DNA from: Tenacibaculum sp. Bg11-29
GTDB taxonomy: Bacteria; Bacteroidota; Bacteroidia; Flavobacteriales; Flavobacteriaceae
DNA length: 64,000 nucleotides
Direction: 5' to 3'
NCBI RefSeq assembly: GCF_002836595.1
Contig: NZ_PJBB01000003.1
Span: 3,099,001 to 3,163,000 of the forward strand
Shown here: piece after piece, positions 13,136 to 44,984 of the stretch
Position numbering within the stretch: the first letter of the stretch is position 1
How the letters are laid out: each line of letters begins with the position of its first letter
The notes under the pieces: generated by a model
Databases searched by the model: none
What the model was told of the DNA's origin: nothing
Seen by the model: only the letters and a program-made list of their open reading frames with translations
Position numbers and translations under genes: made by a program

Positions 13136-13536
13136 GCGTTGGGTAAGTGATGGATAATTGTGTGTAAAAAAAATATTAGAACCATTTGGCTTTATAAAAC
13201 AATCTAATTATTCTAATCATGAATAATTGTAAGAATATTAATCCTCACGAATACCTAAAACCATTGTTAAATAATTCCAGTAATAAAGATTTTATAGAAA
13301 CGTAAATACTATAGGGAATTTAACCTAATATTACAGCTTACAAACTTGATTTCAATAGCAAAACTAAATATTATATAATTGTACTATAATGTTCTGCGTT
13401 ATATAACTTTACTTAGGTAAAAGCTAAGTTATCAACTACTACTTTTTTCTTCTCAAAAATTTTATTTAAAAATGTAATGGAATATTTTTTGCCCGAAACG
13501 ACGATAGAAGTGAAGTGGCAATGTGTATGGAATGGG
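13136..13536 (+). repeat. Dispersed structured repeat, copy R1
   Basis: Starts with GCGTTGGGTAAGTGATGGA (compare GCGTTGGCAAGCGTTGGA in copies R6 and R7). It contains a degenerate copy of the folded core (~13319-13405, with TACTATAATGTTCTGCGTTA), then ACTTTACTTAGGTAAAAG, and ends in the conserved tail GCCCGAAACGACGATAG ... GTGGCAATGTGTATGGAA (13491-13534). The tail ends about 15 bases before the HAD gene start. No gene is supported in 13036-13550: an in-frame ATG at 13515 falls inside the repeat tail. Confidence 0.75.
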
Positions 13537-13550
13537 CTATATTTACACCT

Positions 13551-14180
13551 ATGAATTTAGTTTTTGATTTAGATAATACCTTAATAAATAGAAATAAAGC
13601 ATATCAAAAATGGTTGGCTTCATTTTTAAAAATTGAAAATGATAATTTTTTTGATTGGAAAATTATTTTAGAAAAAGATAATTGGGGTTATACACCAAGA
13701 GAATTTTTTTATAAATGGTTAATCAATAATTTTTCTTTAGATTTCACGCCTGATTTATTAATAAATAAATGTGCAAATGAGTTACATTTTCATATAGATA
13801 AAGACCCTAAAACAATTCAGCTACTTAAAAAATTGTCAAAAAACCATCAGTTATTTATTGCTACCAATGGTGGAGAAAAAAATCAAATGAATAAGCTTAA
13901 AAAAAGTGGTTTATTGGAAATAATTAATAGTAAAAATATATTTATTTCTGAAAAAATGAAATGTAAAAAACCAAACAAACAATTTTTTGACATGATTGAA
14001 AAATGTATTTCAAATACTCAAAAAACAGTAATGATAGGAGATGATCCAATTAATGATGTTTTAGGAGCTAAACAAAATAATTGGGAAACTATTTGGTTGA
14101 AATTCAACAGAGAATTAGAAGTAAATACAGATTTTGAAATTCAAAATATAAATGAATTAGAAAGTCTGTTATATATATAA
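13551..14180 (+). CDS. HAD-superfamily hydrolase
   Basis: About 209 residues from the ATG at 13551. An upstream in-frame ATG at 13515 lies inside repeat R1 and would add 12 residues that do not fit the family, so I prefer 13551, which puts the catalytic motif at the very N-terminus as usual. HAD motif I is VFDLDNTLI (nucleophile Asp, DxDxT), motif II FIATNGG, motif III Lys in KKPNKQFF, and motif IV MIGDDPINDV. The cap is helical, as in YjjG/phosphoglycolate-phosphatase types. The gene is 71 bases upstream of the STM4013-like gene on the same strand and is probably the first gene of that operon. Its substrate is unknown. Confidence 0.88.
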   Translation: MNLVFDLDNTLINRNKAYQKWLASFLKIENDNFFDWKIILEKDNWGYTPREFFYKWLINNFSLDFTPDLLINKCANELHFHIDKDPKTIQLLKKLSKNHQLFIATNGGEKNQMNKLKKSGLLEIINSKNIFISEKMKCKKPNKQFFDMIEKCISNTQKTVMIGDDPINDVLGAKQNNWETIWLKFNRELEVNTDFEIQNINELESLLYI

Positions 14181-14251
14181 ATTATATGGCTATAATTGTA
14201 AATATATATATTTAAAAACCTAAAATTACAATATTTGTTTATATTTAAAAG

Positions 14252-15049
14252 ATGAATGTAAAAACCGCCATACCAAATACTGATATAGTATTTATTACCC
14301 TTGATTCGTTAAGGTATGATGTCGCGCAACAATTATTTTTAGAAGGTAAATTGCCGAATTTTGCTAAATGGTTACCAAAAAACGGATGGGAAGAAAGATA
14401 TAGTCCTGCAAGTTTTACTTTTCCAGCGCATCAAGCATTTTTTGCTGGGTTTTTACCAACCAAAATCAAACAAAAAATTACTCCAAGATTATTTTCTGCG
14501 GCTTTTCATGGAAGTGAATCTACGGTAGAAAATACTTTTGTTTTTGATGAAGCTACGATTGTAGAAGCATTAAAAAACCGAAATTATAATACAGTTTGTA
14601 TTGGTGGTGTAGGTTTTTTCAATAAGCAATCAGCTATTAGTAATGTTTTTCCTTCCATGTTCGAATTTAGTGAGTGGAATAGATCATTTAGCGTTACAGA
14701 GCAAAATTCAACAGAAAATCAACTAAATGCAGCAGTAAAACATTTAAAAACTGATAAACTAGTTTTTTTATTTGTAAATGTATCTGCTACACATCAGCCT
14801 ACCAATATTTATTTAGATCCAAGCAAAGAAGATGATCTTTGTTCTCAAAAAGCAGCATTAGAATATGTAGATTCTCAGTTAGAAATTTTACAAAAAGCAC
14901 TGCAAAATAGAAAACGAGAAACTATAATAATCGTTTGTAGCGACCATGGTACTTCCTATGGAGAAGATGAACACTGGGGACATAGAAACGGACATCAAAA
15001 TGTAATGAAAGTACCATATTTAGAATTAATAAAAGGAAATGAAAATTAA
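14252..15049 (+). CDS. STM4013/SEN3800-like hydrolase (alkaline-phosphatase/sulfatase fold)
   Basis: 265 residues, shorter than typical sulfatases. Metal-site motifs of the alkaline phosphatase superfamily are visible: IVFITLDSLRYDV (first metal Asp), YSPASFTFPAHQAFFAGF (nucleophile region, with F-P-A-H instead of C-x-P-S-R), and IIIVCSDHGTSYGEDEHWGHRNGH (metal-binding D-H and H residues). There is no signal peptide, so it is cytoplasmic. It overlaps the next gene by 11 bases. This size plus the radical SAM/ATP-grasp neighbours match the family NCBI names STM4013/SEN3800, after a Salmonella locus. The family has no known substrate; phosphoester or phosphonate hydrolysis is inference. Confidence 0.82.
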   Translation: MNVKTAIPNTDIVFITLDSLRYDVAQQLFLEGKLPNFAKWLPKNGWEERYSPASFTFPAHQAFFAGFLPTKIKQKITPRLFSAAFHGSESTVENTFVFDEATIVEALKNRNYNTVCIGGVGFFNKQSAISNVFPSMFEFSEWNRSFSVTEQNSTENQLNAAVKHLKTDKLVFLFVNVSATHQPTNIYLDPSKEDDLCSQKAALEYVDSQLEILQKALQNRKRETIIIVCSDHGTSYGEDEHWGHRNGHQNVMKVPYLELIKGNEN

Positions 15050-16349
15050 AGAAATATTTGAAACAGAAGACTTTTACCAAGGATATACGTATTCATATCC
15101 TCACAAACTGGCTTATAGGACAGTTGTAGAAAAAAGTTTATCTGAAATATGGTCAACTCAAAAACAAGATAGTTTGTTTTATTATGTGCATATCCCTTTT
15201 TGTGAAATGCGTTGTGGTTTTTGTAACTTATTTACTGTTGCCAATCCAAAAGAAGGTGTGAAATTATATTTAGAAAGTATTCATAAAGAAATGCAAACTT
15301 ATAGAAATGAAGTACCCAGTTTAAATTTTAAAAATTTTGCTATTGGCGGTGGTACACCTACTTTTTTGAATGTAGAAGAATTAAATTTTCTATTAGATGG
15401 AATGAACAAGTTTGGTGTAAATACTTCAAAATATTATGGTTCTATAGAAGCTTCCCCAAAAACATTGAATCAAGAAAAAATAGAACTCATAGAAAGTTTT
15501 GGTGTCGCAAGACTAAGTTTGGGAATTCAATCTTGGAAAGAAGAAGAAGTAAAAGCTTTGGGAAGACCACAAAATATTATAGACACCGAAAAGGCCGTAA
15601 ATTTATTGGCTCAATCTAAAATTCCTGAATTTAATTTAGATTTAATTTATGGTGTAAAAGAGCAAACGGTTGAAAGTTTTCTGTATTCAGTAGAAAAAAC
15701 AATCAGTTTTGCACCAACTGAAATATTTTTATATCCACTTTATTTGCGTCAGCTAACAGGCTTAGGAAAAAAAGGTGTAAAAGATAATACAAACAGACAG
15801 CAACTATATTTGGCAGCTCGAGATAAACTTTTGTCTTCAGGCTATGAGCAAACAAGCATGAGATGTTTTAGAAAGACAGGAACAGATTATACCAAAAATA
15901 ATGAAGGATATAACAATATTTTAGATGGAATGATAGGTATTGGAGCAGGTGCACGTTCTTATACTTCTGATTTTCATTATAGCACAGATTATGCCGTAGC
16001 AAAAAAAGAAATTAAAACCATTATAGATACCTATAGCCAAAAAGAAAGTTATGAAAAAATAGTACATGGAATCAATTTAGATGAAGATGAACAGAAAAGA
16101 AGGTTCTTAATAAAATCTATTACAGATGGTGGAATTTTTGATGTAAGTATTTATGAAAAAACCTTTAAGTCTAATGCTTTTAATGAGTTTGAAATTCTGA
16201 ATTATTTAATAGAAAATGAATTGATGAAGGAAGTAAAAAACAACATTTTTCGCCTGACTTTAAAAGGAATGTGTTATGAAGATGTAATAGGTCCTGCTTT
16301 GTATTCTTCAAAAACGATAAATTTAATTAACCAGTATTCATGGAAGTAA
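15039..16349 (+). CDS. STM4012-like radical SAM enzyme (HemW-related)
   Basis: 436 residues. The radical SAM cluster motif C-x3-C-x2-C is in YVHIPFCEMRCGFCNLF (residues ~52-68), followed by the SAM-binding AIGGGTPTFLN and later ASPKTLN and SLGIQSW. This resembles HemW/coproporphyrinogen-III-oxidase-like radical SAM proteins, with an extended C-terminal helical domain (DEDEQKRRFLIKSITDGGIF). Such proteins are easily misannotated hemN; the operon context argues for the STM4012 family. It overlaps the upstream hydrolase by 11 bases and the downstream radical SAM gene by 10, so translation is probably coupled. The reaction is unknown. Confidence 0.88.
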   Translation: MKIKEIFETEDFYQGYTYSYPHKLAYRTVVEKSLSEIWSTQKQDSLFYYVHIPFCEMRCGFCNLFTVANPKEGVKLYLESIHKEMQTYRNEVPSLNFKNFAIGGGTPTFLNVEELNFLLDGMNKFGVNTSKYYGSIEASPKTLNQEKIELIESFGVARLSLGIQSWKEEEVKALGRPQNIIDTEKAVNLLAQSKIPEFNLDLIYGVKEQTVESFLYSVEKTISFAPTEIFLYPLYLRQLTGLGKKGVKDNTNRQQLYLAARDKLLSSGYEQTSMRCFRKTGTDYTKNNEGYNNILDGMIGIGAGARSYTSDFHYSTDYAVAKKEIKTIIDTYSQKESYEKIVHGINLDEDEQKRRFLIKSITDGGIFDVSIYEKTFKSNAFNEFEILNYLIENELMKEVKNNIFRLTLKGMCYEDVIGPALYSSKTINLINQYSWK

Positions 16350-17212
16350 AATGGAATATTCTATACAGAGGTTTTTTAGATAGTTGCAACTATGATTGCC
16401 CTTACTGTCCGTTTGCCAAAAAGAAAAACACTAAAGAAGAATTACTGAAAGATAAAATTGCTTTAGAAAAATTTACAAATTGGGTTTCTAAAAGGAAAGA
16501 GAAACTTTCTATACTTATTACACCTTGGGGCGAAGGCTTAATTAGAAAATACTACCAAGAAACTATGGTAGCTTTAAGTCATATTGAAAATGTAGAAAAA
16601 ATAGCTATTCAAACCAATTTGGCTTGCAATTTGAAATGGGTAGAAAACGTAAATAAAGAAAAATTTGCTTTATGGATTACCTATCATCCAAATGAAGTTT
16701 CCTTTGAAAAATTTGTAGCAAAATGTAAAAAATTGATTGCTATGAATATAGATTTTAGTATAGGTGTAGTAGGCGTAAAAGATCATTTTGAAGCCATAGA
16801 AAATTTGAAAAAAGCTGTTTCAGAAAGGTATATTTGGGTAAATGCTTACAAAAGAGAAAAAAATTATTATACAGCATCAGAAAAAAAATGGTTAACAGAT
16901 AAAGATCATCTGTTTCCTATTAATAATAAAGTATATGACACCTTAGGAAAGAAATGTAAAGCAGGTTATTCCAGCTTTTCTATAAACGGAAATGGAGACG
17001 TCTTTAGATGTCACTTTATAAAAAATAAAATTGGAAACATCTATGAAGATGATTTAAATGATATAAAAAAAGAAGAAAACTGTACGAATACAGGATGTAG
17101 GTGTTATATAGGTTATATTAATTTTAATGAATTAAAATTAGAAGAGATATATACTGAAAATTTGATGGTGCGCATTCCAAAAATAAAAAACATTAAAAAC
17201 AAAAATATATGA
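16340..17212 (+). CDS. STM4011-like radical SAM enzyme with C-terminal auxiliary Cys cluster
   Basis: 290 residues. The radical SAM triad is in [17 protein letters not shown] (C-x3-C-x2-C, near residue 17). The C-terminal part carries extra cysteines ([23 protein letters not shown], then [12 protein letters not shown]), a SPASM/twitch-like pattern that usually binds a second iron-sulfur cluster in peptide- or protein-modifying enzymes. It overlaps both neighbours by 4-10 bases. The family name STM4011 fits by length, motif and context. A peptide or protein substrate is plausible by analogy with SPASM enzymes but is not shown. Confidence 0.86.
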
Positions 17213-18318
17213 AAGAGTATTTAGAATACAAAGATTATGAATCGCAAAAATTTTGGCAAATTCAAGTTGTCGGAAATCAATTTACTGTGCTATACGGTAA
17301 AATAGGAACTGATGGAAGAGAACAGGTAAAGACCTTTGATAGCGAAGAAAAAGCTTTAAAAGAAGCTCAAAAATTAGTTGTCCAGAAAATTAATAAAGGT
17401 TATCAAAGAAAGTTAGAACCTTCAGCTACAGAATATAAAGTTGGTGCTAAGGTAAATGCTTCAAAAGGGTATAAATTTTTTCAAGATTATGATGTAACCG
17501 ATGGAACAGTTTTAGAGCAATTAGCAAGTTTTATAACACAAGAAAACTGTGATAAAGTTACTAAAATAGTTATCGGAATGTGGGGAGAGCATGATTCTGG
17601 TCCAGATAATGCATTAGATTTTATTATTGCCAATAAAGAAAAATTTAAAGCGGTAAAGCATTTTTATATAGGAGACATAGAATCGGAAGAAAATGAAATG
17701 TCTTGGATAATCCAAACAGGTTATGAAAAATTTTTAAAGGAATTTTCTAATATTGAAACGCTTGAACTTAGAGGTGGAAATGGTTTAGAATTAGGTAAAT
17801 TTAATTTACCTAATTTGAAGCAATTAAGAATTGAAACTGGTGGTATGAGTAATGAGTTATTAGAAGAAATAATTGCTTCAGTACAAAATTCACCAAACTT
17901 AACGCATTTAGAATTATGGTTAGGTACTGAAGATTATGAAGGGACTGTAAAAGCAGAAACTGTAGAAAAATTAATCTCAGGAATGGATTTGCCTAAATTA
18001 AAGTTCTTAGGCTTAATGAATTCTGATATTCAAGATCAAATAGTAAAATTATTTAAAAATCATCCAATTATTGATAAAATAGAAACATTAGATTTTTCTA
18101 TGGGTGTTTTAACGAATAAAGGTGGCGAATCTTTATTGGCAAATGATAAGCTTTCAACATTAAAATCTTTAAGATGTGTGTTTAATTTTATGACTGATGA
18201 AATGATAGAAAAATTGACTGTTAAATTTAAAAATGGAGATTTTGATAGATCTTGGGCAGAGCACGATGAAGATGAAGACGAGGAAGATAGATATTATTAT
18301 GTAGAAGTAGGAGAATAA
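17209..18318 (+). CDS. STM4015-like WGR-domain/leucine-rich protein with acidic C-terminus
   Basis: 369 residues. Residues ~1-70 form a WGR domain ([19 protein letters not shown], then [23 protein letters not shown]), the module found in MolR-type proteins and PARPs. The rest is leucine-rich-repeat-like: [57 protein letters not shown], each spaced about 25-35 residues. The extreme C-terminus is very acidic, with a D/E run followed by tyrosines ([11 protein letters not shown]). It is cytoplasmic. Its start overlaps the previous stop by 4 bases. A role as a scaffold or as the substrate of the two radical SAM enzymes and the ATP-grasp protein is inference. Confidence 0.85.
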
Positions 18319-18322
18319 TTTT

Positions 18323-19405
18323 ATGGATATTATTCACCTTATAATTGCTCCAAAACTTTCACGTAGAGCTATGTTCTGGAAGAAAGTTTTGGAGCAAAAT
18401 AATTTAAGATACCTTCATATTTCTTATTTAGATATTATTCAAGACAATTTCACTTTAGATAGCGAAATAAATTATGTTGTAAGGTTAGAATCTGCAGGTG
18501 AAGATTTTGAAACTTACAAAGCTATATTGTCGTTTTCAAGTACTAAAGAAAAGTTCAAACTAATAGAAGAAGATTTTGGTTTGATTTCAAATTTTAAAAA
18601 TTGGCATATCGGTTGGGAAAAACTTTTAATGAAAATTAAAAGTTTTGAAAATGATTTCCATTTAAATTTTATTAATAATCCTGAAGACATTGCATTAACT
18701 TTTGATAAAAAATTAACTCAAAATTTACTAATAGCAAATAACATAAATTGTCCAGAAGTTTTAAATTCTTCTAATTATGATGAACTTTTGGCAGAAATGA
18801 AAACCAAAAAAATACATCAAGTATTTATAAAACCAAGCGCAGGTTCTTCGGCATCTGGAATTATAGCTTTGCGTAGCAATGGTACAAAAAAACAAATAGC
18901 TTATAGTACAATTAAAAAAAATAACAACAAGCATTATAACAGCCTTAAAATTCAAGTTTATAATAAACCAAATGAAATTAGAGAACTTTTCAATAAAATG
19001 AATACCAATCCACTGCAAATAGAAAGATGGATTCCTAAATGGCAGTTCAATAAAATGAATGTCGATTTTCGAGTGTTAGTTATTAATAAAAAAGTAGAAT
19101 TTATTGTACCAAGAGGAAGTCGTCAAGCTATTACAAATTTGCATTTAGGAAATCAAAAACTTAAAATTGAAGATTTAAACCTTTCGGAAGAAATTATAAA
19201 TAAAATAGAACAAGCAGCAATAAAAACAATGACTTGTTTTCCTGGTTTACATTATGCTGGTATCGATATTCTATTAAGTAAAAAAGGAAAAGTTTATGTG
19301 TTAGAAGTCAATTCTTTTGGAGATATGCTTTTAAAAATTGTAAACAAAAAACAAAAATCTACTTATGAGCAAGAGTTAGAAAGTTTACAAGTTTTTTTAG
19401 AATAA
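18323..19405 (+). CDS. STM4014-like ATP-grasp protein
   Basis: 360 residues with an ATP-grasp core: the adenine/phosphate-loop segment IKPSAGSSASGI, the basic WIPKWQFNKMNVDFRVLVI stretch, and the metal-binding end YAGIDILLSKKGKVYVLEVNS, with the Asp and E-x-N typical of the fold. RimK-like ligases with this core join a carboxylate to an amine through an acyl-phosphate. It starts 5 bases after the WGR protein stop and is the last intact gene of the STM40xx-like operon. Salmonella STM4011-STM4015 is the reference set for the family names; no activity is established. Confidence 0.85.
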   Translation: MDIIHLIIAPKLSRRAMFWKKVLEQNNLRYLHISYLDIIQDNFTLDSEINYVVRLESAGEDFETYKAILSFSSTKEKFKLIEEDFGLISNFKNWHIGWEKLLMKIKSFENDFHLNFINNPEDIALTFDKKLTQNLLIANNINCPEVLNSSNYDELLAEMKTKKIHQVFIKPSAGSSASGIIALRSNGTKKQIAYSTIKKNNNKHYNSLKIQVYNKPNEIRELFNKMNTNPLQIERWIPKWQFNKMNVDFRVLVINKKVEFIVPRGSRQAITNLHLGNQKLKIEDLNLSEEIINKIEQAAIKTMTCFPGLHYAGIDILLSKKGKVYVLEVNSFGDMLLKIVNKKQKSTYEQELESLQVFLE

Positions 19406-19409
19406 TATT

Positions 19410-19493
19410 ATGTATCAAGATATTCTTCTAGGAGAAGAACAACAATCATCAATAGAACGCTATTCGAAAATATTTAAAAGAAGAAAGCTGTAA
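19410..19493 (+). CDS. 27-residue ORF immediately after the ATP-grasp gene
   Basis: An ATG only 4 bases after the ATP-grasp stop opens a 27-codon frame (begins MYQDILLGEE, ends SKIFKRRKL). It has an acidic/Gln-Ser first half and a strongly basic end, with no cysteine. The position is what one expects of a translationally coupled gene. It could be a genuine small peptide of the operon, perhaps even a substrate peptide, or the start of a lost downstream gene, since a DUF3732 remnant begins 34 bases later. I recognise no family. Confidence 0.35.
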   Translation: MYQDILLGEEQQSSIERYSKIFKRRKL

Positions 19494-19526
19494 ATACCCC
19501 AGTAGAACTAGACATCATAAATTTAA

Positions 19527-19739
19527 CTCTTAAGTTTTTTAGGCAATAAAAGAGAAGGTTTTCTTTGGGAAATAGGAAGCGGTTCAAATTATATGGCATA
19601 TCATATATCTAATGCATTGGCATTAAAGTTTTTTTTAAGAGATACTTCACACCCAGTCCTAAATTTTTTATTCTTTGACCAATCAAGATTTGATTCAATA
19701 CATAAAGTTTTTAGAAGGGGAGATGACAAAGAGGATTAA
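19527..19739 (+). pseudogene. C-terminal remnant of a DUF3732 (ABC-type ATPase) protein
   Basis: An open frame without a start codon encodes about 70 residues including FLWEIGSGSNYMAYH, HPVLNFLFFDQ and a charged end. This is the signature of the ABC-ATPase C-terminal region of DUF3732 proteins, where FLWEIGSGANW.GYH and FL..DQPSQVYFP are typical. Here the segment after DQ is degraded (SRFDSIHKV instead of PSQVYFP), and everything N-terminal, including the Walker A region, is missing. DUF3732 ATPases occur in multi-component conflict systems (ABC-three-component type), so this looks like the relic of a lost defence locus. Confidence 0.7.
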
Positions 19740-19887
19740 ACTCTTATTCCCGATGAATGATTAAGTTAAATATAGTTTTTTAGACTTTAGAGTCTTTCAG
19801 TATTATAACTTAATTAACATTGGTGTTTAAATAAGACATCATACTTGAGGTTGCAAACGTTTTTAAATACAATATGAATGATTTTGG

Positions 19888-37866: not shown

Positions 37867-37897
37867 TTTTCAAAAGTACTTGGTATATTTACGTTTG
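37867..37897 (+). promoter_or_regulatory. Bacteroidota-type promoter before the LytS-like kinase gene
   Basis: TAcgTTTG (37890-37897) matches the -7 consensus TAnnTTTG, with a T-rich -33 candidate (TTTT at 37867-37870) 19 bases upstream. The predicted transcript start near 37903 excludes the in-frame TTG at 37880 as start codon of the kinase gene, because it would lie inside the promoter. Confidence 0.5.
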
Positions 37898-37936
37898 TAC
37901 ATTACAAATACACTTTCGTACATTTACTTTTTAGAA

Positions 37937-38980
37937 ATGAGAGCTTTAAAATACTTTTGTTGTATGAAATATAATGACATGAAATATAACTTATCAATGA
38001 AACTAATAATTCATCTGTTCTTTTGGGTATTCTATTTTGTGGTTGTCTTTTTTTTAGAACCTTACTATGGCAATGCTACCATGAGTTGGATTGATAAGAT
38101 TGATGTAAAACTATTGCTTATTGTAGTGGGATTAACGTACATAAATGATCAGTTATTTCTTCCTTATTTCTTTAAAAATAAAAAATACATCACCTACAGT
38201 CTTTTAATAGTAACACTATTATTTTTAATTACTACAATCTACTGTTATTACATTATTGATTGCTCTTGTAGTTATGGTGCTTGTTTATCACAAAATTTAT
38301 GGAAATTTGTTTTACCAATCATTTTTCTATCTTTAATATGGATATTAATGTCCTTATTTGAAAAACAAAAGGAGTTAGAGAAAATCAATAAAGAACGATT
38401 AGAAATAGAACTTAAGTTTTTGAAATCTCAAATTAATCCACACGTACTCTTTAACAACCTTAATACTATTTATTCACAAGCAGTAAAAGGTGCAGATAAT
38501 GTTCCTGAAATGATTTTAATGTTATCTGAAAATTTAAAGTATATTCTTTATCAGAGTGAAACTAATATAGTGCCTTTAGAAAAAGATATTGATTTTATTG
38601 ATAATTATCTTGAATTTCAAAAAATGAGAACACAAGGAATAAACAATATCATCTATACAAAAAATATCGATTCATTAAACCATTCTATTGCTCCGTTATT
38701 GTTAATTGGTCTTATAGAAAACGCATTTAAACACAGTAGCTATAAAGAAAATTTATTAAGTGATATTGAAATAATAATTAATGTACAAAACGGAAAACTT
38801 CATTTTATTTGTAAAAATGAAGTTGATAATTCTCAAAATAAAACCAATACTGAAGGATTACAAATTGGTTTAAAGAATCTTAAGCAACGTCTTGATTTAA
38901 TGTATAAGGGCAATTATTCATTAGAAAAAATAGAAAATGAAAACAATTTTATAGCAGATTTAAAGATAACCTTAACATGA
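37937..38980 (+). CDS. LytS-type sensor histidine kinase
   Basis: About 347 residues from the ATG at 37937; later ATGs at 37964 and 37979 are also possible, and the in-frame TTG at 37880 lies within the promoter. Four hydrophobic membrane segments (e.g. LIIHLFFWVFYFVVVFFL and VLPIIFLSLIWILMSLF) precede a linker helix and the His-kinase domain with the phospho-acceptor in LKSQINPHVLFNNLNTIYSQ. The family usually reads INPHFLFN; Val here is a mild variant. The ATP-binding part has LIGLIENAFKHS and GLQIGLKNLKQRLDLMY. It overlaps its response-regulator gene by 4 bases. Confidence 0.88.
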   Translation: MRALKYFCCMKYNDMKYNLSMKLIIHLFFWVFYFVVVFFLEPYYGNATMSWIDKIDVKLLLIVVGLTYINDQLFLPYFFKNKKYITYSLLIVTLLFLITTIYCYYIIDCSCSYGACLSQNLWKFVLPIIFLSLIWILMSLFEKQKELEKINKERLEIELKFLKSQINPHVLFNNLNTIYSQAVKGADNVPEMILMLSENLKYILYQSETNIVPLEKDIDFIDNYLEFQKMRTQGINNIIYTKNIDSLNHSIAPLLLIGLIENAFKHSSYKENLLSDIEIIINVQNGKLHFICKNEVDNSQNKTNTEGLQIGLKNLKQRLDLMYKGNYSLEKIENENNFIADLKITLT

Positions 38981-39690
38981 ATTGTATAATAATAGAAGAT
39001 GAGATTCCTGCACAAGAAATCTTAATTACATATATCGGTAAAATACCAGATTTGGAAATTAAGGGCGTTTTTAATTCTGCGCTTATGGCAAACAAAATAT
39101 TAAAAGAAGAGCAAATAGATATTTTATTTTTAGATATTAATTTACCAAATATTTCTGGAATGAATTATTTAAAAACACTACAAAACCCTCCTTATGTAAT
39201 AATGACTACTGCATACTCTAATTATGCAGCTGAAAGTTTTGAATTTGATACTATCGTAGATTACCTAACAAAACCCTTTAGTTTCGAACGTTTTTTAAAA
39301 GCTATAAACAAAGTCGAAAATAGGCAATCAACTATAAAACCTATAAAATCAGACACTATTCAGATTACAAAAAATGAAGACTCTGTGTTTATTAATGTTG
39401 ATAAAACCTTGCATAAAATCAACCTTAATACTATTCTTTATGTACAGTCAGACAGGAATTATGTAACTGTAGTTACCGAAAACATTAGCCTTTCATTTAT
39501 TGATAGTTTAAAAAAATGGAATGACTATTTAATAGATGAACAATTTTTACAGATTCATAAATCATATATTATTAATCTAAATTATGTTGAAAAAGTGACA
39601 GGTAACCTTGTTTATATTAATAAACAAAAAATCCCAGTAGGAAGAACTTTTAAAGACGTTTTATTTGAAAAAATAAAACCTATTAATTAA
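38977..39690 (+). CDS. LytTR response regulator
   Basis: 237 residues. The receiver domain has CIIIEDEIPAQEIL, the phospho-acceptor Asp in IDILFLDINLPNISG, and TTAYSNYAAESFEFDTIVDYLTKPFSFERF with the conserved Lys. The C-terminal LytTR DNA-binding domain has LNTILYVQSDRNYVTVVTE and FLQIHKSYIINLNYVEKV ... IPVGRTFK. The start overlaps the kinase stop (ATGA), and the pair is divergent from the outer-membrane barrel gene. Confidence 0.92.
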   Translation: MNCIIIEDEIPAQEILITYIGKIPDLEIKGVFNSALMANKILKEEQIDILFLDINLPNISGMNYLKTLQNPPYVIMTTAYSNYAAESFEFDTIVDYLTKPFSFERFLKAINKVENRQSTIKPIKSDTIQITKNEDSVFINVDKTLHKINLNTILYVQSDRNYVTVVTENISLSFIDSLKKWNDYLIDEQFLQIHKSYIINLNYVEKVTGNLVYINKQKIPVGRTFKDVLFEKIKPIN

Positions 39691-39818
39691 TTTTGAATGA
39701 ATTATTGTATGCTGTCTCTTAAGAATAAAAAAAACGATGAGAGTAAATTATTAATCTATCAACTATTTTTCGGTACAGTATTTGTATTTTGACAGATTAA
39801 ATATTTATATAAAATAAT

Positions 39819-40076
39819 ATTAAAATTCTTTTAGCTTTTTTATTAGGAGGAGCAATAACAAGCTTTATTCTATTCAGTCAAATTCAAAACAGATATGATA
39901 TAGGCCATAATACAGGTCATCTTGATGGAGGTGTGGAGGTTATCTATTTCTTAAAAAAGAATATACAAAATGATTCGTCAAAAGAAATCACAGACTCTGG
40001 GAAATACCTGGATTTTAAAGATGCTAGAATTTCAGTTGTGGTAATTGATGGTATAGAAACTGTTGTAGTTAAGTAA
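39819..40076 (+). CDS. Small membrane-anchored protein with no ATG/GTG/TTG start
   Basis: An 85-codon frame begins after an in-frame stop with ATT AAA ATT CTT TTA and encodes an N-terminal membrane segment (ILLAFLLGGAITSFILF) followed by a soluble part (GHNTGHLDGGVEVIYFLKKN ... YLDFKDARISVVVIDGIETVVV). The composition is protein-like throughout, but no ATG, GTG or TTG is present at the start; the first codon that fits is ATT at 39819. Either translation begins at ATT, or the ATG was lost and this is a recent pseudogene. No family is recognised. It accounts for part of the long gap 39691-40509, together with repeat R6. Confidence 0.45.
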   Translation: MKILLAFLLGGAITSFILFSQIQNRYDIGHNTGHLDGGVEVIYFLKKNIQNDSSKEITDSGKYLDFKDARISVVVIDGIETVVVK

Positions 40077-40150
40077 CTATTTTTTTTACATACATCTTCT
40101 AATAATATGCAGAATATAATTAAAAAAACTTCAGTTCGAATTCTAAATAT

Positions 40151-40193
40151 AACAAGTGTATAGAAATTTATTTTTCTTAAATTTTATACTCTT
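40151..40193 (+). repeat. 43-base hairpin shared with 44509-44551
   Basis: Imperfect palindrome: CAAG-t-GTATA-g-AAATTTA ... TAAATTT-TATAC-t-CTTG, loop TTTTTCT. The same sequence recurs at 44509, and its left half recurs at 32819 in R4. It lies about 100 bases upstream of repeat R6, just as the other copy lies upstream of R7. Confidence 0.7.
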
Positions 40194-40269
40194 GTGGCTT
40201 ACTGACGAAATGCTTCTGTAAAAAAAATATAACGAGAATTTCCTAGCTAACATAAAGTTTAATTGAATT

Positions 40270-40590
40270 TAAAAGTTAGCTTTTATTTTGGCGTTGGCAA
40301 GCGTTGGATAATTGTGTTAAAAAAAAATACTGCGACAGCATAATTATTTTTAAAAAGCAATCGAGCGTTTGCGAGCGGCAATTTTACATAATGTCTAATT
40401 ATAGCTATCTAATGGATGATAACATTTGTATTATAATGTTCTGCGTTATGTAACTTTGCTTTGGTAAAAGCGAAGTTTTAATTACTTCTTTTCCTTTATT
40501 TTTTTCTAGTCAAATGTTTCTCTGCAATGTTAATGGAACACTCTTTTCATGAAACGACGATAGGAGAGTAGTGGAATGTGTGTGGAATGG
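40270..40590 (+). repeat. Dispersed structured repeat, copy R6
   Basis: The most complete copy. Opening block GTTAGCTTTTATTTTGGCG ... TTGGCAAGCGTTGGATAATTG; block ACTGCGACAGCATAATTA ... AATCGAGCGTTTGCGAGCGG; folded core 40386-40451 (outer ACATAA / TTATGT; inner ATTATA / TATAAT); second hairpin ACTTTGCTTT-GGTA-AAAGCGAAGT; a degenerate tail ATGAAACGACGATAGGAG ... GTGGAATGTGTGTGGAATGG. An apparent minus-strand ORF at 40510-40701 merely runs across this repeat and is not a gene. Confidence 0.85.
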
Positions 40591-40608
40591 AATGTTACTC
40601 CTTATAAA

Positions 40609-40642
40609 AATAAATCTGAATTCACATGAATCCAGATTTATT
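40609..40642. terminator. Hairpin between repeat R6 and the RidA-like remnant
   Basis: 14-bp arms (AATAAATCTGAATT / AATCCAGATTTATT) with one A-C mismatch and loop CACATG. It lies 4 bases past the stop of the short minus-strand frame at 40646-40750 and probably terminates the cupin operon. Confidence 0.6.
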
Positions 40643-40645
40643 AAA

Positions 40646-40750
40646 CTATGTATTAAAGTAGAAGATATGTTGAAAATCGGAAATGTAGTTAGCTTGAACA
40701 TATGCTAATTTGTCTTGCCATTTCCATGGATTAATAATTTTTCGTTCCAT
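40646..40750 (-). pseudogene. N-terminal remnant of a RidA-family gene
   Basis: A 34-codon frame starting MERKIINPWKWQDKLAYVQA. The opening (RKIINPW-WQD-.-.-VQAN) matches the N-terminus of one RidA/YjgF subfamily, whose members continue with a TLYCSGQ-type segment for about 130 residues. Here the frame ends after FYFNT, and the rest of the gene is absent, replaced by a hairpin and repeat R6. It is the last element of the MarR-controlled minus-strand group, 33 bases after the cupin gene stop. It could still be translated as a short peptide. Confidence 0.6.
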
Positions 40751-40783
40751 TTGTTATTTGTTTTAAGTTATATTCTTTACTAA

Positions 40784-41245
40784 TTATTCTATATAAACTA
40801 CTCCAAATTTTTCTTCAATTAATGCAAAGTCAAATTTTCCAGACTTTACTTGTTTACTAGTTTCTGCAAAAAAATCTTCAGCCCAATCCCCTGGAAATAT
40901 GTAGCTAATTAATTTTGCATCTTTATCTCCTGTATTTTTCATATAGTGTGATACTCCTTTTGGACAATGAATAGAGTCTCCTGCGCTAACCAAGACTGTT
41001 TCATTACCAATTTTAACTTCTAAATCCCCTTCTACAATATGGAAAGTTTGATCTTCCCATTTATGATAATGGTTAGGTACAAATCCATCAGGCTCAATAA
41101 TACCATCACTAATAACATATTCAGAATTTGTAGCCTCTTTACCAGCTATGATACCTATAAATTCATTTTCAGTCATCCAATACTTTTTAGCATCACTAGC
41201 TTTTTTTATTACTGTTTTTTTATTGGTCTTAATCAAATTTTCCAT
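40784..41245 (-). CDS. Cupin-domain protein
   Basis: 153 residues, single cupin fold. Cupin motif 1 is in GFVPNHYHKWEDQTFHIVEGDLEV (H-x-H ... E ... G) and motif 2 in DSIHCPKGVSHYMKN (P-x-G-x-x-H), giving a 3-His-1-Glu-type metal site. No signal peptide. It ends the intact part of the minus-strand operon 40784-43586. Cupins of this type include small-molecule dioxygenases, isomerases and sensors; the substrate is unknown. Confidence 0.85.
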   Translation of the reverse strand: MENLIKTNKKTVIKKASDAKKYWMTENEFIGIIAGKEATNSEYVISDGIIEPDGFVPNHYHKWEDQTFHIVEGDLEVKIGNETVLVSAGDSIHCPKGVSHYMKNTGDKDAKLISYIFPGDWAEDFFAETSKQVKSGKFDFALIEEKFGVVYIE

Positions 41246-41247
41246 TT

Positions 41248-41757
41248 TTACTTTTTTAAGTATTTAGTTTCACACATCGCTATTATTACTACTATTGGAG
41301 TAAATATTAATGCTAAAAACCCTGCATAACTTCCTTTTATGATGATGTAATATTTTAAAGATAAAAGGGTAGCATTTGTCACTTCAAGAAGCAAGAATAA
41401 TAATGGTATAAAGACAAGAGTTATTACAATAGCAACTAATAAGCTTCCTAAAAAAGGACGCTGCATCGATTTTTTTAAGATTGAATTGAACCATTCAATT
41501 TCTAACGGTTGTAGTTTCCCTGACTTTACTGCTTTATGCGTCATTTTAGAAACTAACAAAGAAGTCATAAAGACTAACATGAAAGTGGTCATTATTAAAT
41601 CAAAAGCAAAACTATTTTCACCCCATAAATTAAGTTTATCAGCAGATTTAAAAACGACCCATCCCATAAGAGAATTCATAATAATATTCATGAGCACTCC
41701 CATAGTTGTTTGCTGTAAAAAGATATATTTTTTCTGCTTTTTAGATAATGAGATCAT
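41248..41757 (-). CDS. Four-helix integral membrane protein, unrecognised
   Basis: 169 residues with about four membrane segments (VLMNIIMNSLMGWVVF, FDLIMTTFMLVFMTSLLV, LGSLLVAIVITLVFIPLLFLL, AGFLALIFTPIVVIIAM) and a charged loop between the second and third. No conserved catalytic motif is seen. It lies 2 bases before the cupin gene in the MarR-linked operon. Function unknown. Confidence 0.75.
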   Translation of the reverse strand: MISLSKKQKKYIFLQQTTMGVLMNIIMNSLMGWVVFKSADKLNLWGENSFAFDLIMTTFMLVFMTSLLVSKMTHKAVKSGKLQPLEIEWFNSILKKSMQRPFLGSLLVAIVITLVFIPLLFLLLEVTNATLLSLKYYIIIKGSYAGFLALIFTPIVVIIAMCETKYLKK

Positions 41758-41771
41758 AATTTGTGTCTATA

Positions 41772-42515
41772 TTAAAAATTAAGCGTTAAACCTGGAGTTA
41801 AAACGGAGTTGGTTTTTTCTGCCATAGGGACTTCTTTGCTATTATGCCAGACGCTATATGATATGTTAAATTTTAATGATTTACTTATATCAAAGAATAC
41901 ATCTAAACGACTTTCAATACCACTATAATCACTATCCGAGAATGATAAATATGTGTCAATTGAATATCTAATACCCATAGTTTTTGTTACAGGAAAATGT
42001 GAACGCAACCTAAGACCTGTACTGGCAGATTCATGCTTATTAAATGGAGCAAATTTCACAGCCATATAGCCAACATAAATCCCTAAATCGACATAGTTTT
42101 GCTCTGATTTTTGATGAATGTTCCAAGCGACACCAGGACCAGTTAGAAAAGCGTAATCGAGTGAATAAGAGTTTGCTTTTGATATATTTACCGAATAGGT
42201 AAAGTAAAGTTTATTATGTTCTTTTAAGTTGTAACTAGCATGAACATAGTAATCACTATCTAATTCAAAATCTTCAACAGATAAGAATTTATAATTTAAT
42301 CCTAAGTTTAATCGATTGTTATTTTTCTTGAAATTTATTTCTCCTCTTCCTGTTAATAATGTTTCATCTATAGTACCTGTTTGAAAATTAGCCATTAGTG
42401 ATAATGAACCATCCACTTTCAAAGAATCTTTTACAGTAGTTAATCCTTCGGTTTTTTGACTAAAAGTGTAGCCTGATAAAAATAAAAAAATAATGACTAA
42501 TATTCTTAGATGCAT
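41772..42515 (-). CDS. Predicted outer-membrane beta-barrel protein (DUF481-like)
   Basis: 247 residues. A signal peptide (LRILVIIFLFLSGYTFS, cleaved near Q20) is followed by many alternating aromatic strands (LSLMANFQTGTID, NRLNLGLNYKFLSVEDF, HNKLYFTYSVNISKA, LRLRSHFPVTKTMGIRYSIDTYLSF) and a terminal TPGLTLNF with C-terminal Phe, as in small outer-membrane barrels. The ETLLTGRGEINFKK stretch resembles DUF481 proteins; this assignment is tentative. It lies 13 bases after the DoxX-like gene. Confidence 0.75.
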   Translation of the reverse strand: MHLRILVIIFLFLSGYTFSQKTEGLTTVKDSLKVDGSLSLMANFQTGTIDETLLTGRGEINFKKNNNRLNLGLNYKFLSVEDFELDSDYYVHASYNLKEHNKLYFTYSVNISKANSYSLDYAFLTGPGVAWNIHQKSEQNYVDLGIYVGYMAVKFAPFNKHESASTGLRLRSHFPVTKTMGIRYSIDTYLSFSDSDYSGIESRLDVFFDISKSLKFNISYSVWHNSKEVPMAEKTNSVLTPGLTLNF

Positions 42516-42527
42516 AGTACAGAGATT

Positions 42528-42917
42528 TTAGTTTGATTTTAATTGAAAAATTTGCTTATAAGAATCTTTATATAAAACAAATAAAGTTACGTTAAGTATT
42601 AATGCTAATAAAGAGCCTCCAATACCTGGTAAGTCTAAGGCTAAGTGAAATAGAAAGGCATTTAATATTATAGGGAAAATAAGTATTAAAGCTAATGAGG
42701 TATAACGGTTGATTAATAGTAAAACTCCTACGCCTACTTCTAAAATTCCTACAATTGGCATAATATATCCTGCTTTTAGCAATGCTCCTAAAAATTCACC
42801 ACCTTCAGGTGTTGGTGCTGGCAGCGGCATAAATTGAAAAATTCCATTTAGACCAAAAAAAGCCAAAAATGCTCCATAAATAATTCTGATTACTGTTTTT
42901 GTTTTGCTTGTTTTCAT
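42528..42917 (-). CDS. DoxX-like membrane protein
   Basis: 129 residues with four membrane segments: IRIIYGAFLAFFGLNGIFQF, the GALLKAGYIMPIVGILEVGVGVLLL core, SLALILIFPIILNAFLFHLAL and GGSLLALILNVTLFVLY. Length, topology and the G-x-x-x-F-G-L-N-G start fit the DoxX/DUF6790-like group of quinone- or redox-linked membrane proteins. Part of the MarR-controlled operon. Confidence 0.8.
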   Translation of the reverse strand: MKTSKTKTVIRIIYGAFLAFFGLNGIFQFMPLPAPTPEGGEFLGALLKAGYIMPIVGILEVGVGVLLLINRYTSLALILIFPIILNAFLFHLALDLPGIGGSLLALILNVTLFVLYKDSYKQIFQLKSN

Positions 42918-42953
42918 TTTTAAATATTTACTTGTTATTAGATTTATTAATTT

Positions 42954-43586
42954 TTAAAGCCAAAGCATGATAAAACCACCATAATTGGTATTTACGATAC
43001 CTTGAGGGCCTATATACTCGAAGTTAATAGCTGGACCGATACTGAAATTTTTATGCTTTGCACCAACTCTCCAATTATGATAACTATACACATGTTGCTT
43101 ATTAAAGTCTGTTAGTGCTTGTACTCGAAAAAAGGGTTGAATTTTTTTGCCATTATTAGGGTGCCATTCAAAAAAGGAGAACAATTCAAAAAACCCATCC
43201 TTATGTATTTCAATACTAGGCTGAATGAATAGACTTATCTTTTTATTAAATAAGCCATAGGAAGTAGCCAATAATGTTCTAAAACCTGATGCTGTATTTA
43301 ATCTTGTACCTGCTCCTATATTAAAATGATTAGTAAGCTTGTACGTAATCATTGCTTCTGTATTTATAGAATTTGGTGCGGTTTTTTCGTGATTAACTTT
43401 GTATGCCAATTGTGAAAAGAAACCAAACCTACTTCCTTCAAAAAGTGGGCGGTTAATTGAAAACTGAAATCTGTATGCTTCATTTCCTACCATTAATTCT
43501 AATGGTATAGGTGGTTTTTTCTCTAAGTCTTGCGCATTTGCGAAAATATTTAGAAGTATAAACGGTATGATAATCAAGTGTTTCAT
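42954..43586 (-). CDS. Secreted or outer-membrane protein, unrecognised
   Basis: 210 residues with a signal peptide (KHLIIIPFILLNIFANAQ). The mature part has barrel-like alternating strands (YRFQFSINRPLFEGSRFGFFSQLAYKV, FNIGAGTRLNTASGF, KISLFIQPSIEI, WRVGAKHKNFSIGPAINFEYIG) and ends GGFIMLWL. It is the first gene of the minus-strand operon whose promoter is overlaid by the two MarR-type operators. Function unknown. Confidence 0.75.
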   Translation of the reverse strand: MKHLIIIPFILLNIFANAQDLEKKPPIPLELMVGNEAYRFQFSINRPLFEGSRFGFFSQLAYKVNHEKTAPNSINTEAMITYKLTNHFNIGAGTRLNTASGFRTLLATSYGLFNKKISLFIQPSIEIHKDGFFELFSFFEWHPNNGKKIQPFFRVQALTDFNKQHVYSYHNWRVGAKHKNFSIGPAINFEYIGPQGIVNTNYGGFIMLWL

Positions 43587-43627
43587 GCTGTTTTGCAGTC
43601 TAATAATATATATTAATAATTAAAGAG

Positions 43628-43692
43628 TTGACTATTCAACACTACAAATCTAGAAAAAAGTATTGAATACTCAACACTTTTTTTTAGATTTG
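43628..43692. promoter_or_regulatory. Divergent promoters with two MarR-type operators
   Basis: Two near-identical sites, TTGActatTCAACACT (43628-43643) and TTGAatacTCAACACT (43663-43678), each an inverted TTGA-N4-TCAA, have centres 35 bp apart. Rightward promoter: TTG at 43663-43665, 19 bases, TAgaTTTG at 43685-43692, ending 4 bases before the marR ATG, so the mRNA would be nearly leaderless. Leftward promoter: GTTG (complement of 43672-43675), 19 bases, TAgaTTTG (complement of 43645-43652), with a start near 43639 inside the first site. Site 2 overlaps both -33 elements. Autorepression plus repression of the divergent operon is inferred. Confidence 0.65.
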
Positions 43693-43696
43693 CGAT

Positions 43697-44176
43697 ATGA
43701 AATGGAGCGAATTATATATAAAAGACATAAAAAACTTACAGTTGAAAGCAATTCTTAATGTAGTATATACAGGTTTTAGATACGAAAAACGAATTAAAGA
43801 ACTTCTTACACCGATGGGGATTTCTCATCAGCAGTTTGAAGTTTTGAAAATATTGGAAGAGTTCCCTAGTAAGCCTTTTAGTTTGAAAGAAATTCAGATG
43901 CAATTATTAAATCAAACATCTAATGCTACGCGGTTGGTAGAGAAACTAAGATTAAAAGAGTTGCTACAAACTTCCCCTAGTAAAGAAAACAAGAGTAAGT
44001 TGGATATTATGATTACTAAGAAAGGTTTAGATTTGTTAAAGAAAACGGAACACCCAGTTAAATTAATGATGGCTGAAATTAAAGAAAATTTAAGTGATGA
44101 TGAGGCTAATGAAATATCAAGAGTTCTTACTAAAGTTCAGGATTCATTAGACGAAAAGGAACATAATGTTCAATAA
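43697..44176 (+). CDS. MarR-family transcriptional regulator
   Basis: 159 residues with the winged helix of MarR proteins: ISHQQFEVLKILEEFPSKPFSLKEIQMQLLNQTSNATRLVEKLRLKELLQTSPSKENKSKLDIMITKKGLDLL covers recognition helix and wing. N- and C-terminal helices for dimerisation flank it. Divergent from the membrane/cupin operon, with paired operators between. Ligand unknown; such regulators often sense phenolic compounds or oxidants. Confidence 0.9.
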   Translation: MKWSELYIKDIKNLQLKAILNVVYTGFRYEKRIKELLTPMGISHQQFEVLKILEEFPSKPFSLKEIQMQLLNQTSNATRLVEKLRLKELLQTSPSKENKSKLDIMITKKGLDLLKKTEHPVKLMMAEIKENLSDDEANEISRVLTKVQDSLDEKEHNVQ

Positions 44177-44508
44177 ATATAGAATGTTAAACTCGACCTC
44201 ATAAAATTTTGGATAAAACAATAGGAGAGAGGAACGTAATATTTTAGGGCTTTATCAAAACATATTCTTAAGAGTTTCAATTATGCAATGAATTTCTGAT
44301 CAGTCTTAGTAAATTACAATGTTTCCTAAAATATAGTGTAACGAAACGTAATTGTTTCCAAAATTATATGCAGTCTTGATTTTTTGTTTCTTTTTTTATC
44401 AAGAAAAAAAGATAATAATAAACTATTAATAGTCACGATTTTAAATTTCAGTTCTAAATGTTGTTAAACAACTCAAATCAAAAAAGGTTGAATTATAGCA
44501 CAATTAGA

Positions 44509-44551
44509 GCAAGTGTATAGAAATTTATTTTTCTTAAATTTTATACTCTTG
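44509..44551 (+). repeat. 43-base hairpin, second copy
   Basis: Same imperfect palindrome as at 40151-40193 (CAAGTGTATAGAAATTTA ... TAAATTTTATACTCTTG). The rest of 44177-44630 is AT-rich gene-free sequence; a weak repeat-tail-like fragment (ATAGGAGAGAGG) lies near 44221, and nothing else is recognised. Confidence 0.7.
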
Positions 44552-44630
44552 CGAAAACCTTTACTAGAATGTCGTAGAAAAAAATATTGCAGGATTATTA
44601 TCCAATACGCGAATTTTAAACAAATCTAAA

Positions 44631-44984
44631 AGGTTAGCTTTTTTTGGCGTTGGCAAGCGATGGATAATTGTGTTTAAAAAAATTACTGCGACAGCATAAT
44701 TATTTTTAAAAAGCAATCGAGCGTTTGCGAGCGGCAATTTTACATAATGTCTAATTATAGTTACAAATTTATAGTTCTGAAGTTTCTTGAGAATCGCGTA
44801 TTTAAAATAACTTGAACGATTGTACAGAATATTAAATTTAAACGAAAAGCAAAAATGATAATGTTTAATGACCCAAGTACTACAGGTTATTGGTGTGTAC
44901 AAGACTTTCTGGGATATTTTACATAATATAGAATTATAGCTATCTAATGGATGAAATACATTTGTACTATAATTAATATTATGT
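44631..44984 (+). repeat. Dispersed structured repeat, copy R7
   Basis: 44631-44760 is almost identical to 40270-40405 of R6, including GGCGTTGGCAAGCGATGG and a stretch of about 75 identical bases ending CTAATTATAG. An internal block (GATTGTACAGAATATTAAAT ... near 44819) is shared with R2 and R3. It ends in a folded core at 44921-44984 with arms ACATAATATAG-AATTATAG / CTATAATTAATATTATGT, here nearly paired throughout. The tail block is missing. No gene is supported across 44177-45130. Confidence 0.8.

Follow-up and report, generated by a model that had tools for sequence, protein, structure and literature searches.

The closest described relatives of the array reported here exploit dif, the chromosomal dimer-resolution site of the host recombinases XerC and XerD. 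Among integrative mobile elements exploiting Xer (IMEX), the phage CTXphi carries two attachment sequences in inverse orientation and 90 bp apart, attP1 with XerC and XerD sites around a 12-bp centre and attP2 with a centre of 5-7 bp, according to the accessible parts of PMC4246890. Its folded strand recombines with dif by XerC catalysis, the bases beside the XerC site setting the specificity, and its integration is described as irreversible in the available portions of that paper and of PMC5357621. The dif modules (pdif) of Acinetobacter are toxin-antitoxin or adaptive modules bounded by Xer sites and gathered in multi-module islands; the accessible parts of PMC6449649 and PMC12907356 place them, with shared C/D and D/C sites, on plasmids or at extra dif sites off the main dif. 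In Flavobacterium, PhiCjT23-like prophages of single-stranded DNA (ssDNA) are flanked by dif (PMC9719478, in its accessible part). Here, we analyzed a stretch of 64,000 nucleotides (hereafter the window) of Tenacibaculum sp. Bg11-29 (NZ_PJBB01000003.1, positions 3,099,001 to 3,163,000), which holds a 32-kb mosaic of gene modules separated by a structured repeat and closed by dif. Searches of an open-access library returned IMEX, Acinetobacter dif modules and dif prophages, and no such arrays in Bacteroidota. We consider it very probable that the mosaic consists of cassette-like modules captured at dif by the host XerCD, i.e., an integron-like relative of the Xer-exploiting elements.

An earlier reading of the window, made without database searches (the sequence-only reading), had listed seven copies of a repeat, R1 to R7, in a single orientation. 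We recovered the repeat at all seven places, always on the + strand (Table 1). R1, R2, R5, and R6 have a full junction core, but R3 (a fragment of the right end, RE, and the tail of a left end, LE) and R4 (an RE block and an LE devoid of core) are decayed, and R7 is an RE ending in dif, unlike a normal RE+LE junction. When R5 and R7 were searched against the 4.54-Mb genome, six of seven and seven of eight matches, all +, fell inside the window, the outsiders being short and weak (E 4.5e-4 and 5.7e-4, respectively). Within this genome, the repeat is confined to the window's array. Each interval is a module made of an LE of about 150 nt, cargo genes, and a structured RE of up to about 790 nt. 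The same rule is seen in the arrays of 21 genomes, where the leftmost repeat is typically an LE with little or no RE, the inner ones are RE+LE, and the last one is RE+dif.

The junction core is composed of the XerC arm of dif, a 9-nt centre, and a divergent XerD arm. Read in order, the LE has the centre TGTTCTGCG, the XerD-like arm TTATGTAAC, a hairpin (AACTTTGCTT..AAAAGCGAAGTT), and the block CGAAACGACGATAGGAGTGAAGTGG, and the RE carries an inverted dif-like site, TTTTACATAATnnnnAATTATAGCTA. Such inverted sites (up to 5 mismatches, within 260 nt) are found ahead of 28 of 53 sites in all. Sorted by eye, these are 11 of the 13 inner junctions, 3 of the 20 leftmost ones, and 14 of the 20 dif-like sites. 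The centres measure 9 nt in the core, 7 nt in the inverted site, and 6 nt in dif, against 12, 5-7, and 6 for CTXphi in the accessible part of PMC4246890.

R7 terminates in TTGTACTATAATTAATATTATGTTAAATAG, which from ATAAT onward matches the dif of Escherichia coli almost letter for letter. To place this site, we used 166 Polaribacter genomes, the genome under study (G000) included. A 23-nt dif pattern, one mismatch allowed, occurs in 149 of them and in 124 of the 128 of good quality; six genomes have two copies (counted by eye) and the remainder one, which in our genome is at 44968-44990. We measured GC skew in twenty samples of 20 kb each, plus three parts of the window. All 11 stretches between 1.0 and 3.1 Mb, ending with the window's first 20 kb, have a positive skew, and 9 of the 11 on the other side have a negative one. 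This places the array at the chromosome terminus, with the skew origin about half a genome away.

The association with dif extends to other genomes of the genus. With R5 as a query, 104 of the 166 genomes have a match at E<=1e-3, many of them short chance matches, and 64 have one below 1e-10 (by eye); at most four candidates were scored per genome, with a listing down to an E of about 2.6e-4, and copy numbers are lower bounds. A position table assembled by hand covers 62 of these 64 genomes, with dif on the same contig in 56, on another contig in two, and none listed in four (the dif of G161 came from the scan of array regions instead of the genus pattern scan). All 78 tabulated matches of the 56 genomes are on the strand of dif and on its XerC-arm side, at 17 nt to 32 kb from it except for one at 97 kb (median 7.4 kb). 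Seven matches below 1e-10 lie outside the table: G129:77799, G141, and G145, each with dif on its contig, fit the pattern by eye, and the other four (G126:C98, G156:C33, G156:C46, and G112:C36) are on contigs without a listed dif. A dif-like site (up to 3 mismatches) closes the extracted array in 18 of 21 regions; in G039 the array ends at a 5-mismatch site and the better dif follows outside the stretch, and the dif of G028 and of G076 falls outside the 40 kb region. In the wider family, there are no reversed junctions (up to 5 mismatches) among the 117 loci listed, and dif is right of the junction in all 15 of these that contain it. This is the opposite of the random orientation that the sequence-only reading had named as fatal to its proposal, and differs from the alternating C/D and D/C order of Acinetobacter dif modules. 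The hexamer TTGTAC is found in 10 of 19 array dif sites and in 3 of 20 comparison sites (Fisher p 0.019; hexamers entered by hand), which is no more than suggestive of homogenisation of the XerC arm in array dif sites.

One comparison with an empty dif shows the insertion point. The left flank of the array in G010 aligns with the empty dif region of G076 at 89% identity over 294 columns, through TGTACTATAAT, beyond which G076 continues into dif and G010 into an LE. The last base they share is one past the XerC arm, as expected if strands exchange beside that arm with one shared base. The border thus falls at the repeat core, contrary to the absence of any link with gain and loss that would have spoken against the earlier proposal. 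In a second pair, G077 (empty) and G085 (filled), the left-flank gene is 92.6% and the right-flank genes 85% identical, and about 15 kb of modules in G085 lie between these shared flanks. Right-flank homology begins at dif in G034, G068, and G142. For comparison, no LE junction was found within 10 kb of dif in 19 genomes taken as array-free for want of a strong repeat match and at the empty dif of G076, except in G016 (7 mismatches, 6.4 kb away). Of these 19, 13 were listed without a match in the repeat search, G077 belongs to its unlisted remainder, and G016, G033, G040, G048, and G067 have weak matches only (E 9e-5 to 1e-3). G048 and G055, both in the array-free set, have inverted dif-like sites beside dif, i.e., RE remnants.

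Relatives differ in their modules at the repeat borders, in agreement with the cassette-like recombination site or mobile repeat of Flavobacteriaceae suggested earlier. G000 and G039 share 9.1 kb at 92% identity, ending with the LE of R1, after which their cargo differs; one 5.8-kb module is common to G017 and G060, and the photolyase pair is present in 4 of 21 regions, in different settings. Most stretches common to Polaribacter regions are 70-85% identical. The RE of Polaribacter matches loci of other genera (labels from record titles) at 91% in Aquimarina (690 nt) and Algibacter (558 nt), 90.5% in Tenacibaculum (580 nt), and 87% in Bizionia (781 nt). Such identities appear hard to explain without transfer, although a strong constraint on the RE would raise them too. 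The wider-family set comprises at least 117 loci, 80 of them listed with titles, and in these 80 titled rows junction cores occur in records of at least 27 Flavobacteriaceae genera, excluding a metagenome-assembled genome (MAG) labelled Flavobacterium; some of the other genus labels are also those of MAGs. One more junction is on a MAG contig labelled Pleomorphochaeta, which is probably misbinned. In an order-wide set, the core pattern (up to one mismatch) was found in 6 of 296 genomes, all among the 50 of Flavobacteriaceae and none among the 246 of other families. The family, order-wide, and phage/plasmid core scans required an exact or one-mismatch core, hence divergent members are missed.

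The cargo is metabolic, sensory, or toxin-antitoxin. The modules of the window encode photolyases, an NMN transporter next to an AAA_28/CTP_transf_like protein, a TonB receptor, a LytS/LytTR pair, a MoxR-type ATPase, and a MarR set. Recurrent in relatives are response regulators, histidine kinases, beta-lactamase-fold hydrolases, ABC transporters, and TonB receptors, and a few transposases also occur there. In three family loci from different records, a ParD/ParE pair is alone in modules of 887-893 nt. Intervals range from 0.15 to 15 kb in Polaribacter (n=31, median 6.6 kb; one of them, of 5111 nt in G029, ends at a doubtful site) and from 0.11 to 7 kb in the family (n=40, median 3.2 kb, limited by the 8-kb loci). 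The longest Polaribacter interval is in the window, where it spans the decayed R3 and R4. Open reading frames (ORFs) of at least 100 amino acids follow the array direction in 82 cases and oppose it in 7 in the 40 complete family intervals; the figures are 134 and 54 in 18 Polaribacter arrays, including the window's. Of the latter 188 ORFs, 10 run across the stretch border, 27 are the window's, and 151 were scanned for families. Among the PHROGs names listed for these 151 module proteins are transposase, endolysin, tail protein, and minor tail protein with lysin activity; this last family agrees in its member numbers (3, 4) with the Pfam beta-lactamase family and hence probably consists of such hydrolases. 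No capsid or replication protein was seen among the 25 commonest PHROG families listed of 42 and of 58, a selection in which rare mobility genes could be missed. PADLOC gave a weak defence match, to a WGR domain, for 1 of 10 window cargo proteins. A protein of 97-142 amino acids with no significant Pfam match is found repeatedly close to junctions, in every case on the + strand, in 4 of 21 Polaribacter regions (G037, G039, G060, and G161) and 11 of the 117 family loci listed, including L179 (5415-5822).

How might such modules enter? The array would be a stack of mobile modules (LE, cargo, and RE, without a recombinase), joined head to tail at the chromosomal dif. In the excised or incoming form, the RE would be joined to the LE. 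The core and the inverted dif-like site could then pair on one strand into a hairpin, as in attP(+) of CTXphi, in which a XerC arm and a XerD arm are restored on either side of an unpaired centre. With XerD bound, the host XerC would exchange one strand between hairpin and dif beside the XerC arm, and the inserted module would separate this arm of dif from the rest. As the module's own RE supplies a new XerC arm, a complete dif would always be rebuilt on the right, where the next module would enter; hence a single orientation, with the oldest modules leftmost. Possible sources of the ssDNA are conjugation, transformation, and a helper phage, and modules may also leave again. The likeness in design to CTXphi is the main ground for proposing a folded single strand as the substrate. 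The CTXphi-like attP anatomy also explains the hairpin noticed in the sequence-only reading.

Folding predictions agree in part. The RE of R7 as ssDNA reaches -90 kcal/mol, against -69 +- 4 for 20 shuffles (z-score -5.3). In a consensus structure of 15 near-full-length REs, predicted from the same alignment that was scored and without a slid or shuffled control, 1748 of 1879 cells are paired and 21 of 127 pairs have changed on both sides. The base-paired arms quoted earlier are present in the sequence. The fold drawn from them was retained in some copies only: folded alone as DNA, R2 takes it, no better than shuffles (z -0.7; other strand -1.1), and R7 with dif adopts it (z -3.9), but R5 forms two different small hairpins (z -3.0) and R6 does not adopt it. 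Similarly, the reported covariation of the inner stem comes down to one pair going from G-C to A-T on both sides in 10 of 77 junctions, the other inner pairs being nearly invariant. Shuffling of partners equals the observed pairing in 48 of 2000 trials on the XerC side and in 1136 of 2000 on the XerD side, for junctions that were selected for having an inverted site and include some copies twice. The loop between the paired arms spans 4 to 186 nt in the 77 cases and 4-10 nt in compact REs such as that of R5. Some relatives' REs, e.g., positions 15020-15615 of the joined region of G037, have an extra hairpin in the segment that links the inverted site to the XerC arm; on its two sides stand ACATAAT and ATTATGT, which resemble XerD arms of dif face to face. 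Rfam returned three matches up to E 1 over the window, all below gathering scores and none at the repeats, and we rejected a known RNA family for the latter.

We then considered which enzyme is available. The genome has 10 tyrosine-recombinase matches, 8 of them above the cut-off. We examined three of the proteins. By best family, one is XerD-like and another XerC-like, each below the curated equivalog cut-off. The third is a Xer-like protein of 376 amino acids with an N-terminal extension of about 108 (L092, G000:C3:2090137-2091264). It scores above the cut-off of NF040815 (XerA / integron integrase) and below that of TIGR02249, which no protein of the genome exceeds; in other words, no integron integrase was found in it. 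The third recombinase is sporadic in the genus: of 39 other genomes examined, one (G014) has a close relative of it (81%), G039 has a broken piece (68%), and at E<=1e-60 it is absent from the array-bearing G046 and G085. We rejected it as a dedicated array enzyme, since it does not track the arrays. Searches by phmmer with the three proteins as queries (E 1e-4), which would miss distant integrases, gave one match among 755 ORFs of the 21 regions, right of dif in G046, and none inside the Polaribacter arrays. The window's array is among them, in line with the earlier remark that the window has no integrase. In the family loci, 1 of 857 ORFs matched, in L209. The modules presumably depend on the host XerC and XerD.

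Set beside the known systems, the modules share with CTXphi-type IMEX the integration at chromosomal dif, the insertion beside the XerC arm, the rebuilt dif, and the tandem arrays. They also have a dif-like attachment sequence with a compatible XerC side and a divergent XerD side, and two inverse dif-like sequences, one with an extended centre. Unlike these elements, they have no phage replication or capsid gene among the module-protein families listed, no recombinase inside Polaribacter arrays, metabolic, sensory, or toxin-antitoxin cargo, a structured right end of up to about 0.8 kb, a Bacteroidota host, and arrays of different modules. The islands of Acinetobacter resemble them in their Xer-bounded toxin-antitoxin and adaptive modules, whereas here the sites are one-directional and the main dif is the anchor. 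PhiCjT23-like prophages and microviruses, in contrast to the modules, are phage genomes with Rep and capsid genes. An exact copy of 27 nt of the dif region (44960-44986) is in a microvirus record; the 31-nt dif site matched 276 phage records, most at chance level, and of the best 20, four had E<0.01, all Microviridae. No record of the phage collection is similar to the LE or RE beyond dif. The likeness to a chromosomal integron lies in the oriented cassette array, the foldable site, the small toxin-antitoxin cassettes, and the mostly co-directed genes; the arrays differ in the lack of a detected IntI and of the attC consensus, in their larger modules, in the dif target, and in the host Xer as the proposed enzyme. 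We class them as Xer-exploiting elements working like an integron, not as an integron. The integron-like sites of the sequence-only reading are indeed cassette-like, in one orientation, and possibly folding, but of the dif/Xer type and not of the attC/IntI type.

Other explanations were weighed as well. That the repeats are passive structured sequences, similar to repetitive extragenic palindromes (REP) and acting as hotspots of homologous recombination, seems hardly credible. They do have long homologous stretches in common, and R6 looks as if the DNA between two inverted copies of the kind retained in R7 had been deleted. Yet the tabulated matches all lie on one strand and side of dif and the empty-site border is beside the XerC arm, which largely refutes this idea. 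Another reading, very unlikely in our view, has integrative elements with a private dif-targeting integrase accreting there and losing the integrase genes later. Tandem accretion at one site is common among integrative elements, and the match in L209 could be such an integrase; against this, 64 genus genomes have strong repeat matches and no tyrosine-recombinase match occurs inside the arrays of the 21 regions. A chromosomal integron whose IntI is elsewhere or lost is as far-fetched as the passive repeats, despite the 0.9-kb cassette-like ParDE modules, the single orientation, the possible fold, and the co-directed genes (82 against 7 ORFs). The R' motif of attC sites is GTTRRRY, which the GTTATGT of the junctions breaks, and the sites cannot be assigned to the attC family as first suggested: no protein of the genome is above the integron-integrase cut-off, the third tyrosine recombinase does not track the arrays, and the target is the chromosomal dif instead of attI. 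We thus rejected the integron on the integrase search, the core motif, and the dif anchor, even if true attC sites are known from the Polaribacter phage P12002L (PMC9892861, in its accessible part).

Entry of the modules into dif as double-stranded circles by Xer, in the style of VGJphi or of TLCphi and the gonococcal genetic island (GGI), is unlikely, though less so than the other alternatives. The inverted site and the RE structure would then serve replication or packaging. The insertion point and the regenerated dif would appear identical, and compact modules have short REs. However, the centres are unequal in length (9 and 6 nt), and the modules keep an inverted dif-like site that has a 7-nt centre of its own, as for CTXphi, while VGJphi has a single dif-like attP in the accessible parts of PMC5357621 and PMC4246890.

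Several observations also weigh against capture at dif by the host XerCD. The array stretch (20.0-45.0 kb of the window) has a negative skew despite its position left of dif. In 20 genomes dnaA is not opposite dif but at a distance of just 0.06-0.30 of the genome (approximate values) from dif or the array; we dropped it as an origin marker in favour of GC skew, and the terminus call rests on the skew samples. The array of G076 is 97 kb from its empty dif (G076:C1:542043 and 639137). A border exact to the base is seen in a single empty/filled pair, and the left homology of G085 and G077 ends about 0.5 kb before the first junction of G085. The covariation between core and inverted site is thin, and since the two pair by descent, pairing itself is weak proof of a folded substrate. 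The tyrosine-recombinase match of L209, which is truncated at the end of the locus, lies about 7.4 kb away from the junction and may belong to a module. In 3 of 20 regions, an inverted site precedes the leftmost detected junction, which requires older modules to have been lost. We looked for a clean left-to-right age gradient of decay along the array, saw none, and dropped it as unclear. Finally, no free form of the modules was found in phage, plasmid, or viral-contig collections: the carrier search gave one dif-sized match in phages and none for the LE, in plasmids, or in viral contigs, and we set aside phages and plasmids as carriers in the collections searched, having found no LE or RE similarity beyond dif.

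Capture of modules at dif by XerCD would make a housekeeping cell-division site the entry point of adaptive gene modules in a major marine bacterial group. It predicts where accessory genes such as photolyases, TonB receptors, sensors, and toxin-antitoxin pairs enter genomes, and gives natural borders to the modules. Stacking at the dimer-resolution site, apparently by a housekeeping recombinase and not by a dedicated integrase, recalls the integrons that spread resistance. We therefore raise, as a serious possibility if one short of an even chance, a "Xer-integron", i.e., a native gene-capture system of Flavobacteriaceae with dif as the insertion site, the host XerCD as the integrase, and folded single-stranded sites exchanged across genera. 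If true, this system would be a present-day parallel to the step in which Xer recombinases are believed to have given rise to integron integrases, and with the arrays one could test how integrons might have arisen from Xer recombination on folded single strands.

Table 1. Features of the window's array, from right to left, and ParD/ParE modules of family loci.
Feature	Position	Strand	Remarks
Chromosomal dif	44962..44989	+	array right end; sole own-genome match to dif pattern; near GC-skew switch
dif XerC arm TTGTACTATAA	44962-44972	+	
dif 6-nt centre	44973-44978	+	
dif XerD arm TTATGTTAAAT	44979-44989	+	
R7, full-length RE of module 6, structured non-coding DNA	44185..44961	+	homologues in other arrays; ssDNA fold z -5.3
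Inverted dif-like site (attP2-like) in R7	44917..44942	-	19 nt ahead of XerC arm
Second, upstream inverted dif-like copy in R7	44737..44762	-	repeat family D5
Module 6 cargo	40591..44184		cupin protein, DUF481 protein, weak DoxX-like protein, MarR regulator, proteins without significant family match
R6 junction core and LE of module 6	40426..40590	+	XerC arm 40426-40436
R6, RE of module 5	40145..40425	+	inverted dif-like site 40382-40407
Module 5 cargo	35364..40144		outer-membrane beta-barrel protein, His_kinase (LytS-type), LytTR response regulator
R5 junction core and LE of module 5	35199..35363	+	XerC arm 35199-35209
R5, compact RE of module 4	35162..35198	+	inverted dif-like site 35166-35191, 7-nt loop
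Module 4 cargo	32983..35161	+	TonB-dependent receptor
R4	32808..32982	+	decayed RE block 32808-32842; LE 32894-32982 without core
Module 3 cargo	24816..32807		AMP-binding protein, MoxR-like AAA_3, AAA_28/CTP_transf_like protein, NMN transporter, three proteins without significant family match
R3	24690..24815	+	RE fragment 24690-24770; LE tail 24803-24815
Module 2 cargo	20290..24689	-	DPRP photolyase-related protein, DNA photolyase, DUF2452
R2 junction core and LE of module 2	20137..20289	+	XerC arm 20137-20147
R2, RE of module 1	19884..20136	+	inverted dif-like site 20071-20096
Module 1 cargo	13535..19883	+	HAD hydrolase, sulfatase-like protein, two radical SAM proteins, WGR protein, ATP-grasp protein
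R1 junction core and LE of module 1	13379..13534	+	XerC arm 13379-13389; 92% identity to G039 stops at 13534
R1, decayed RE of older module to left	13130..13378	+	
ParD/ParE module	L185 5349-6238; L197 4815-5702; L223 4932-5825		loci oriented along array; decayed copy in L184

A few minor features complete the description. The HAD ORF of module 1, as called, begins at 13515, within the LE. Stretches of R6 and R7 (window 40145-40407 and 44502-44763) are 94-96% identical, R6 having the look of a deletion between two inverted copies like those kept in R7. The gene right of dif (window 45131-46231) encodes a protein with four DUF7151 stretches and is followed by two ORFs of similar size (46241-48484).

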